NCBI GenBank assembly: GCA_030068145.1
Contig: JAPJBO010001000.1
Span: 1-64,000, forward strand
Direction of reading: 5' to 3'
Length of the DNA stretch: 64,000 nt
Origin: Diplonema papillatum
Lineage: Eukaryota > Euglenozoa > Diplonemea > Diplonemida > Diplonemidae
Below, piece by piece: positions 36,781 to 44,720 of the stretch. Under the pieces are notes generated by a model. That model was not told the origin of the DNA. It saw only the letters and a list, made by a program, of their open reading frames with translations, and did no database searches. The translations under genes were made by a program, and so were the position numbers. Positions within the stretch are counted from its first letter, which is position 1. Each line of letters opens with the position of its first letter.

Positions 36781-37160
36781 ACACACACACACACACACAC
36801 ACACACACACACACACACACACACACACACACACACACACACACACACACACACACACACACACACACACACACACACACACACACACACACACAACACA
36901 CACACACACACACACACACACACACACACACACACACACACACACACACACACACACACACACACACACACACACACACACACACACACACACACACACA
37001 CACACACACACACACACACACACACACACACACACACACACACACACACACACACACACACACACACACACACACACACACACACACACACACACACACA
37101 CACACACACACACACACACACACACACACACACACACACACACACACACACACACACACA
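36781..37160 (+). repeat. (CA)n microsatellite, about 190 units
   Basis: 380 bp of CA dinucleotide with one interruption (CACAACACA at about 36893). It ends exactly where the retrotransposon begins (GGGGGAATTGAGAGG), and a shorter CA tract resumes at the element's 3' end. Confidence 0.97.
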
Positions 37161-37214
37161 GGGGGAATTGAGAGGGAACACGAAAGCCAAAAATATACCG
37201 AAGACAACAATATA

Positions 37215-38702
37215 ATGGCAGGGTCCGGCGGCCTCCACGCGGCTCCCCCGGTCAATGGTGCGAGCACCAGCCAACAGCCGGACCCAACCCTCCCCACAAT
37301 CACACTCGTGAGGAGAACGATGTCGCTGTACGACATCAAAGCGCTGCCGGAAGGAACCAGGAGGGAGGCAGCAACGTCCCTCCTGCAGCAGCTCCCTTGG
37401 GATGCCGAGGTCGTAGCACTGCCCCGGAATGGGCGTGTATTAGTGGTGCGAGCAGCCGGAGCTCCGCCGGCCACGGAGTTCAAGCTGCGCGAGGGTGGGA
37501 CGTGCACCATCAGACCGTCACCACCACCCATCAGCCGAGTCCCAGACCCCACCGCGAGGAACAAGCGGGAGAAGTACACCAAGAAAGAGTTCTTGGACTT
37601 CTGCGGGCGAGAGGAAGGGGTACGCAGGTGGGAGAGAGGGCTGCAGTTGGAGCGCGAGTGGCGGGAACAGAAAGGAGAGAGAACAACGGCCGCACCCATC
37701 AGGGCGAATACAACGTGGGTAGACGGGAACCAGACGCCCGCGTCAGCTTCGGCGCCGGCGTCGGTCGCAGCGGCACGGGCAGCACCAGAAGCAACGTCAG
37801 CACCGGCACCAGCGACGGCAACGGTTCCAGTACCCGGACAGGCAGCTGCGTCGCCACCACGGGCGACACAGCTAGCTCACTTGAAGAAGGAACTTGCCGA
37901 GATGGAGCGACGCCTGACCGAAAGAGTGGACCGCCGACTGGAAGAGGCGATCGTACACCACGCAGAAACACTGGGAACAACACAAACTGCGTTCCTTACT
38001 GATCTTCAAAAGCTAATCGGCCAGCAACACGAGCAGCAACAGAAGCAACAACAGGAGCAAACGACGCGCCAGCAACGGTGGATGGCCGAGCAGGAGCAGC
38101 GTCAGGAACGCCAGCAGCAGTTGCAACATGAGATGCTACAACAATTGGTGCACCTGCAGCGGGAAAGCCGAAGCGAACAGGAGCAGCAACGCGTCCGGGA
38201 GCAGGATCTGCAGGGACGACAGGAGCAGCTGGTCACGGCAGAGGAGCAGGAGCGAGGACGGGTGCAACAGGAGCAGCAGGAACAGTGGGATAAGCACGAG
38301 CAGCAACACGTCCGGGAGCTGCAGAAACGACAGCAGCGTGACACGAACCAGCCGCGGCCTAAGGTCGCAACGAAGCGGGAGGCATCCCGATCAGCAGAGG
38401 GAACGCCAGCCAAGGCAAAGCTGCGCCTGGCGCAGGACTCTGAGGACAGCAGCGAGAGCCCGAGCGTCGTGGATTGGGCAACTGACGGGAGCGACAGTGA
38501 GGGCGCACCGCCATCGACCCCATCCTCATGTAGGGGCGGCCGGTGGGAAGTAGGGGACATGGTGGAGGCGCAGCACACAGACGACAGGTGGTACGAAGCC
38601 GCCCTCAAGGGGCAGGCGGCAGACGGCACATGGACGGTGGCGTACTCGAACGGCGTCACGCAGGGGGGGCGACTACCGGAGCAAATGCGCCAAAAGATAT
38701 GA
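37215..38702 (+). CDS. Retrotransposon ORF1: coiled coil with Tudor-like C-terminus
   Basis: 495 residues, ATG 54 bp inside the element. The N-terminal about 100 residues are of unknown fold. There is an Ala/Pro-rich linker (about 165-215), a long Gln/Glu/Arg-rich coiled coil (about 220-385; many EQQQ repeats), an acidic stretch (DSEDSSES) and a C-terminal module of about 50 residues, WEVGDMVEAQHTDDRWYEAA..GTWTVAYSNG. This has the layout of a Tudor/Agenet-like barrel (W..GD.V.A....D.WY.A, then V.Y..G). As ORF1 it is expected to bind the element RNA and form particles; the Tudor-like end might read a chromatin mark or methylated arginine, which is inference. No CCHC knuckle is present. Confidence 0.85.
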   Translation: MAGSGGLHAAPPVNGASTSQQPDPTLPTITLVRRTMSLYDIKALPEGTRREAATSLLQQLPWDAEVVALPRNGRVLVVRAAGAPPATEFKLREGGTCTIRPSPPPISRVPDPTARNKREKYTKKEFLDFCGREEGVRRWERGLQLEREWREQKGERTTAAPIRANTTWVDGNQTPASASAPASVAAARAAPEATSAPAPATATVPVPGQAAASPPRATQLAHLKKELAEMERRLTERVDRRLEEAIVHHAETLGTTQTAFLTDLQKLIGQQHEQQQKQQQEQTTRQQRWMAEQEQRQERQQQLQHEMLQQLVHLQRESRSEQEQQRVREQDLQGRQEQLVTAEEQERGRVQQEQQEQWDKHEQQHVRELQKRQQRDTNQPRPKVATKREASRSAEGTPAKAKLRLAQDSEDSSESPSVVDWATDGSDSEGAPPSTPSSCRGGRWEVGDMVEAQHTDDRWYEAALKGQAADGTWTVAYSNGVTQGGRLPEQMRQKI

Positions 38703-44621: not shown

Positions 44622-44664
44622 GTGCATTGCGCAACTGGGCTAGACTCCGCTCAGGGGTTACCCA

Positions 44665-44720
44665 TTACTGAGATTTCACACACACACACACACACACACA
44701 CTCTCTCTCTCTCTCTCTCT
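44665..44720 (+). repeat. (CA)n-(CT)n tract at the retrotransposon 3' end
   Basis: About 13 CA units then about 10 CT units, directly after GAGATTT. It represents the 3' flank of the microsatellite target. Confidence 0.95.

Follow-up and report, generated by a model that had tools for sequence, protein, structure and literature searches.

Can a two-letter microsatellite be the chosen landing site of a retrotransposon, or does an element come to lie in one by chance? This question is raised by a locus of the diplonemid Diplonema papillatum, in which a mobile element of 7516 bp interrupts a (CA)n repeat. The window, i.e., the whole stretch of DNA analyzed here, comprises bases 1-64000 of contig JAPJBO010001000.1 (C1000) of assembly GCA_030068145.1; the assembly (271.4 Mb, 2910 contigs) is the genome searched throughout, and C and L labels denote contigs and fetched loci, respectively. 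A previous sequence-only reading of the window had described an intact and probably recent non-LTR (long terminal repeat) retrotransposon located exactly inside the microsatellite, and had raised (AC)n as its possible target. As developed below, the element is very probably an autonomous, recently active non-LTR retrotransposon whose lineage comprises several families and inserts into (CA)n/(TG)n microsatellites through target-primed reverse transcription.

An intact element between two CA tracts

The 5' target tract, delimited by TRF, occupies positions 36780-37160 (381 nt) and comprises 191 CA units with 99% matches and one visible interruption. The element begins directly behind it, at 37161, with GGGGGAATTGAG and ends at 44676 with ...CTGAGATTT; CA is then found again at 44677-44701 (25 nt), with a (TC)n run directly beyond. 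These boundaries (37161-44676), which place the element inside (CA)n as had been described, are the same in other copies. No terminal repeats were found among direct repeats of at least 25 nt. All features of the element lie on the + strand and include a 5' untranslated region (UTR; 37161-37214, starting GGGGGAATT) and two open reading frames (ORFs), ORF1 (37215-38702, 495 aa) and ORF2 (38976-44621, 1881 aa counted from the first ATG), both of which are open, in line with the intact ORFs noted previously. With a reverse transcriptase (RT) and an APE-type endonuclease in one protein, a constant 3' end and 5' truncations among its copies, the element is a non-LTR retrotransposon, or long interspersed nuclear element (LINE).

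A whole-element search of the genome gave 14 scored near-complete copies, including the one of the window, and a search with the ORF2 protein gave 25 scored matches, in all of which the frame is open. As the seven further full copies that were read are moreover 99.95-99.99% identical over 7516 bp, a recent insertion of the window copy, as had been supposed, and a recent activity of the family are supported. Less similar copies include 5' pieces with identities as low as 99.3% and 500-bp 3' pieces at 99.0-99.4%. The exact first 22 bases of the element are present at 49 places and its exact last 25 bases at 73 (reversed control patterns: 0), these counts taking in near-identical copies only and leaving diverged copies outside. 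In viral contigs, no relative of the element was found (two pattern matches, none confirmed), while a phage collection gave a single RNase H match and nothing else related.

Both ends abut CA repeats

All left flanks of the exact 5' ends were read, and in 49 of 49 cases the element is preceded by a CA repeat, with at least 84% CA steps in the 20 nt upstream. The phase of the joint is CA/GGGGG in 46 of them; of the other three, one has a tract ending in AC, and the joints of the remaining two contain one or two irregular bases. As far as they could be read, the left tracts span 14 to 381 nt, the flanks in C411 and C2746 measuring just 24 and 35 nt up to the contig end. At the opposite side, every one of the 71 exact 3' ends examined out of the 73 found (C770:98776 and C957:27686 were left out) runs into CA, with at least 70% CA steps over 20 nt in 67 flanks (for L048, 12 nt are readable before the contig ends). 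The four remaining flanks (L073 twice, L081 and L115) have 8-12 nt of CA followed by other sequence. Copies devoid of the last TT also run into CA (L068). In addition, the orientation is uniform: the CA strand is the + (coding) strand of the element in every case. Chance adjacency to CA is ruled out, since the window without the element and its tracts contains zero 20-mers with at least 70% CA steps on either strand.

Incomplete copies were tabulated by their 5' junctions, after dropping those with less than 90% identity, with less than 15 nt of flank or identical in both their start and the final 40 nt of flank. This left 21 rows, 16 of which have at least 70% CA steps in the preceding 20 nt, while one, L059, has 68% (imperfect CA). 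Three of the 16 represent the breakpoint at element base 5838 (C240, C770) and nine are hairpin-only copies, to which we return below. Altogether, six internal 5' truncation points are located at CA, namely 5838, 6951, 7096 (imperfect tract), 7156, 7218 and 7406. The four rows without CA correspond to L074, L060 and two rows of a single inverted junction in L089, whereas other copies fill the fetched stretch and show no 5' junction (e.g., L069, L075, L078-L081, L084, L086, L088, L090, L091, L094, L096). Of note, around position 400-440 of L089, a truncated copy abuts part of its own 3' region in inverted orientation, which resembles 5' inversion by twin priming.

These junctions support the assignment of the element as a (CA)n/(TG)n target-specific LINE. 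The comparison of flanks proposed along with the sequence-only reading was carried out, and no near-identical full-length copy was found outside CA (0 of 49 exact 5' ends, 0 of 71 examined 3' ends).

The CA repeat predates insertion at two sites

For an empty-site test, the outer flanks of six full copies were joined without element and CA and were searched in the genome. Two of the six copies, those in C741 and C840, sit in interspersed repeats whose sister repeats are continuous across the site. In the case of C741, the match runs unbroken through the joint at no fewer than 13 places, which contain 31-55 extra bases; for C840, there are at least seven continuous places with 38 extra bases and at least four more (C2567, C1400, C1159, C704) with the two halves 80-104 bases apart. 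The empty sister of C741, located in C602, reads ...CCCCAGTTTT, 25 nt of CA and CCAAAATTTT, the side just before the CA reading CAGTTTT, and at the filled site the element is preceded by 58 nt and followed by 107 nt of CA. Likewise, the empty sister of C840, located in C2672, reads ...CACTGCACAACAAA, 29 nt of CA and TCACTCTCC (also given as CACAACAAA-(CA)-TCACTC), and the filled site has 33 nt of CA, the element and 167 nt of CA. Since sister repeats without the element hold CA at the same place, the CA repeat was present before insertion at these two sites.

Could the element nevertheless make its own CA, from an RNA that carries a CA tail or an RT that generates one, and insert without target specificity? 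Among the 3' repeats listed in a table for the L1 and RTEX families of green algae is (CA)n (PMC3747384), and di- or trinucleotide repeats are described as frequent in the 3' UTRs of lepidopteran RTE elements (PMC2887409). The filled CA tracts are also longer than the two empty ones, as such a tail would predict. However, the paralogous empty sites already contain CA, and CA is also found on the 5' side, at 49 of 49 full ends and at the six internal truncation points, which a 3' tail alone cannot explain. We thus regard this explanation as highly improbable, while CA tail growth alongside targeting is possible. Indeed, with filled tracts longer than empty ones, some of the CA in the flanks may be produced during or after insertion; as these are two sites and tract length varies among sister repeats, a lengthening of the tract by insertion or by subsequent slippage is no more than suggested.

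Alternatively, the element and its CA tracts could have spread together as one larger unit (CA-element-CA), through segmental duplication or within another mobile repeat, in which case the copies would not be separate insertions. Some copies do have outer flanks in common (L017/L112, L078/L088, L082/L096, L074/L093). Moreover, among the 40 of 49 loci with a left flank readable beyond CA (at least 35 nt), only 20 flanks are unlike all others, 18 group into two clusters (repeats or element 3' ends) and two are identical. Those 20 unique flanks nonetheless argue against a common unit, and the matches within clusters are mostly at 74-98%, the flanks concerned being known repeats or the ends of other elements. 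The length of the left CA tracts varies over the whole range given above, truncated copies with other boundaries are also in CA, and empty sister sites exist. With six different 5' breakpoints at CA and an empty CA tract in sister copies of two target repeats, the CA is not simply part of the element, a possibility that had been raised together with the (AC)n target, and spread as a larger unit appears scarcely credible.

Stacked insertions and diverged relatives

At least 10 of the 40 readable left flanks have as their tract the CA that lies behind the 3' hairpin of another element, either of the same family (L011, L014, L026) or of relatives (L023, L025, L029, L034, L105, L107, L109). In addition, full copies are arranged head to tail in C2450, C1760 and C957, separated by 32-34 nt of CA. 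The CA behind one insertion is hence a target for the next. As each insertion has CA on both sides, the flanks of the element are new targets, which explains both the head-to-tail tandems and the stacking of families.

Another family of landing sites is an interspersed repeat, GGGAGGCACCACGT..., which ends in CA and lies left of the insertions in L019, L028, L031, L099, L102 and L106. In the right flanks of L063 and L064, the CA tract ends in CAG and coding-like sequence follows directly (EF-hand-like in L063, by reading), as if these insertions were in introns with the 3' splice site inside the CA repeat.

Behind the 3' CA in C184 and C2717, a second element starts (CACACA/GGGGGG...), with a sequence identical in both contigs; its region from RT to zinc knuckle has 43% aa identity to residues 920-1412 of ORF2. 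More broadly, ORF1 or ORF2 matches below 80% aa identity were found in 12 of 128 loci; of these loci, L023, L044, L055 and L059 represent portions of copies from the family itself. Relatives end in hairpin plus CA in L025 (62%) and L057 (50%), others start right after CA in L076 (52%), L084 (73%) and L117 (67%), and two further 5' ends, starting GGGGGGAAA, are found behind the CA of L092 and L095. Judged from these sequences, the element appears to belong to a multi-family lineage abutting CA, with 43-73% aa identity among adjoining relatives.

A conserved 3' hairpin

Close to its 3' end, the element contains a hairpin (44634-44666) that is conserved between families with covariation, as assessed by alignment and fold scoring. 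Eleven hairpin sequences from the window and the loci were aligned over 34 columns; under the fold ((((((.((.(((((......))))))))))))), 86% of cells are paired and 8 cells are changed on both sides. The covariation score is 0.190 versus 0.127 for shuffled alignments and is reached by 0 of 500 shuffles, while the number of double-change pairs and the number of pair types are not above shuffles (263/500 and 313/500, respectively). When partners are slid, pairing falls to 51.5% or less, part of this advantage being built in because the structure was taken from one member. A model of the hairpin has three matches in the window and also recovers L105, L109 and two places in L057, none of which was used for building, and a strict pattern for the sister lineages is present at 366 places in the genome (control: 0). 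The hairpin would be the natural candidate for the RNA feature recognized by the RT.

Elsewhere in the window, a 115-bp tandem repeat (62919-63166, 2.2 copies, 97%) carries the same hairpin twice on the - strand (62939-62972 and 63054-63087), outside CA repeats; it possibly represents the remains of a related element with another tail.

Besides its presence in longer copies, the hairpin is found by itself. At 61 places (control: 0), CACAC is joined directly to the hairpin, from element base 7476 onward, a junction foreign to the full element. Eight of these places were read (L070, L071, L072, L083, L085, L087, L092, L095), and each is bounded by CA left and right and has the exact 3' end of the element. 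At the remaining 53, that end is missing and the 3' tail is a different one. Similar copies outside the 61 are found twice in L073, where the hairpin is joined to (CA)nTCAT, and once in L077, where it starts at base 7478. Hairpin-only copies can also lie close to one another, with three in C411 spaced 52 bp apart and two in C2678 spaced 51 bp apart. Hairpins of another lineage occur as three tandem units with CA linkers in L059, and L027 contains one close behind CA, while an analogous CA-hairpin junction of a common sister lineage, searched in one pattern form, was found at 0 places.

What are these short copies? They may be recurrent abortive insertions, in which the RT stops at the 5' base of the hairpin, owing to structure, a bound protein or AC microhomology, and the complementary DNA (cDNA) is joined to CA. 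The breakpoint indeed coincides with the outer hairpin edge and has AC in common with the CA tract, the RNA could come from the full element, and hairpins close behind CA in other lineages (L059, L027) are what a general RT stop predicts. Against this stand the number of places sharing one fixed base, 61, which exceeds that of the exact full 5' ends (49), the lack of the analogous sister-lineage junction in the single form searched, and the exact element 3' end being present in only eight of the 61. We give such abortive insertion just under an even chance. A bolder proposal, which we advance tentatively and hold to be somewhat short of even, is that this hairpin (about 41-43 nt) together with CA moves as a unit in its own right. 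Such a unit would perhaps be the smallest non-autonomous retroposon, consisting of hardly more than the hairpin recognized by the RT, and would be carried in trans into CA repeats by the elements encoding OTU, APE and RNase H; with insertion lengthening CA, the lineage would build its own landing sites and help drive the growth of CA microsatellites in this genome. As 53 places have another 3' tail, these may represent a separate family. A mobile unit is favored by the fixed base and the count, an RT stop by the shared AC and the other lineages, and between a trans-mobilized hairpin and a frequent RT stop the balance is near even.

Proposed mechanism of insertion

The target, the orientation, the boundaries, the two empty sites, the truncations and the shared hairpin were observed directly; the route leading to them, including the roles of OTU and ORF1, is what we infer. 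With a uniform orientation and a constant 3' joint, it would be the TG strand of the repeat that is nicked, presumably by the APE endonuclease of the ORF2 protein (ORF2p), and the freed (TG)n 3' end would prime reverse transcription at the RNA 3' end ...GAGATTT. ORF2p would recognize this RNA by its short 3' hairpin, so that all copies would have the same orientation and terminate in ATTT/(CA)n. Cleavage of the second strand in the same phase and its joining to the cDNA would then yield (CA)n/GGGGG for full-length copies, whereas an early stop of synthesis would join CA to an internal base. Finally, the OTU domain may protect the proteins of the element from ubiquitin-dependent decay or be involved in polyprotein processing.

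Several observations weigh against so strict a choice of target. Two truncated copies start outside CA, L074 in other sequence and L089 at an inverted piece of itself, although both may be rearranged; L060, a diverged 32-bp fragment (94%), also has its 5' side outside CA. Searches with exact ends detect near-identical copies only, and older copies elsewhere could escape them. Paralogous empty sites were obtained for only two of six copies, with one place read for each, and the filled tracts at these sites (58+107 and 33+167 nt) exceed the empty ones (25 and 29 nt). Moreover, the flank relatives L022 and L037 (37-39% aa identity) were not seen ending in CA, and two hairpins of the window (62939 and 63054) are away from it.

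Proteins encoded by the element

ORF2 has Pfam matches to OTU, Exo_endo_phos, RVT_1, RVT_3 and RNase_H, each above the curated cut-off. The OTU-like cysteine protease match (39087-39377, E 2.3e-8) includes DGACMF at aa 38-43, and a HYD motif is found at aa 150, beyond the matched stretch. It is followed by the APE-type endonuclease (39654-40283, E 1.4e-12), which contains the E, GDxN and D motifs, with THS at aa 451 just past the match, and by the RT with its YVDD motif (41415-42161, E 4.1e-19). By motif reading, a CCHC zinc knuckle, CPYCNDEEGETVAHLWWMC, is located between RT and RNase H (42945-43001); on the relative L126, a zf-RVT match is weak and below cut-off. The RNase H (43578-43976, RVT_3 E 3.1e-7) contains the D, E, D and D motifs. 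On commonly known motif definitions, the catalytic signatures of OTU, APE, RT and RNase H are thus all found in ORF2, whose top PDB match by sequence is human LINE-1 ORF2p (8sxt, E 4.6e-15). Regarding a restriction-like endonuclease (RLE), ORF2 contains no [KR]PD...D motif and no Pfam RLE family, a motif search that could miss a diverged RLE; a structure model of a candidate stretch has a predicted local distance difference test score (pLDDT) of 40, too low for use.

ORF1 has a middle part rich in Q, E and R. Its C-terminal segment (38529-38663) is weakly Tudor-like (phmmer against a PHF20L1 chain, E=0.0084): matches to PHF20/PHF20L1 Tudor chains are all weak (E = 0.008-0.05), no Tudor family of Pfam matches ORF1, and a single-sequence structure model of the C-terminus has a pLDDT of 49, too low for use. 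Of the domains named in the sequence-only reading, OTU, APE, RT and RNase H hence stand, while the Tudor-like label of ORF1 is retained as a weak resemblance.

The stop codon of ORF1 is UGA, within UGA CUG (38700-38705), which is in frame with ORF2, and the following frame is open for 1972 codons. As the frame continues beyond the stop, read-through from ORF1 to ORF2 is possible; it is an unproven idea. The second family has UAG as its ORF1 stop, with only 66 open codons read beyond, which is weak as an indication of read-through.

Other features of the window

Among seven neighboring ORFs, three match ordinary gene families in Pfam and four have no match. Two ORFs (9323-10210 and 23302-24198) match sodium/calcium exchangers, and an open frame at 53740-55887 contains flavodoxin, radical SAM and wyosine-formation domains (TYW1-like). 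The longest neighbor, an open frame of 989 codons (48768-51734), has no match in Pfam or PDB. The window also contains two perfect tandem arrays, GGCTATCACA at 32596-32982 (38.7 copies) and TAGTCT at 34480-34828 (58 copies), as well as a fragment of eukaryotic large-subunit ribosomal RNA at 30725-31135 (71.6 bits, model positions 1468-1888), which looks like a partial or displaced piece of rDNA. By its contents the window is eukaryotic, and a search for a rubisco family, meant as a marker of the host, gave no match.

Relation to known elements and significance

Dualen possesses a cysteine protease, a feature shared by the present element through its OTU-like domain, and Kibi and Koshi, two Tx1-type LINEs, target TC repeats. 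LINEs of the Tx1 and R1 clades (TRAS, SART, R1) have, like the present element, an APE endonuclease and a strict target, but differ from it by its (CA)n target and OTU domain. These two clades are the APE-type groups named among the majority of reported target-specific LINEs (PMC4640811). The same source describes the fish element Togen, discussed with NeSL-related families, as (TG)n-specific, which is the same dinucleotide target since (TG)n equals (CA)n. However, the RLE-encoding clades listed there include NeSL and HERO (PMC4640811), whereas our element has an APE endonuclease and no RLE motif was found in it. Dualen/RandI of Chlamydomonas is similar in having RNase H but encodes both APE and RLE, whereas neither RLE motif nor family was found here; the accessible part of that source makes no mention of (CA)n targeting by Dualen (PMC4640811).

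OTU proteases have been reported on other mobile elements, Ginger1 and some Helitrons, which are DNA transposons of unrelated mechanism (PMC2836005), and a Tudor domain has been described in a brown-algal Gypsy element, the word OTU being absent from the main text (PMC12477816). Regarding the 3' end, LINE/SINE (short interspersed nuclear element) pairs with stringent-type recognition likewise have a conserved 3' sequence or stem-loop, a likely RT signal, in common with short non-autonomous copies (PMC3747384), and a role of stem-loops in 3' recognition has been described (PMC5135761). Unlike in these pairs, the short unit here seems little more than the hairpin, inside CA repeats.

An APE-type LINE combining OTU with a (CA)n target was not found in the literature searched, Repbase reports and most subscription papers being outside that search. 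Target-specific LINEs and the (TG)n-specific Togen are known, and what appears new is a (CA)n-specific, OTU-bearing, APE-type LINE lineage, similar in its working to other LINEs with a specific target but set apart from named families by their descriptions, which is not proof of novelty.

For directed DNA insertion, both a (TG)n-specific endonuclease and a short RNA handle at the 3' end would be attractive. Moreover, with dozens of near-identical copies and empty sites available for comparison, two questions become testable: how an APE endonuclease reads a two-letter repeat, and what is the minimum size of RNA that is still retrotransposed. For this OTU-bearing lineage, a dinucleotide repeat would thus serve as a safe and apparently self-renewing landing site.

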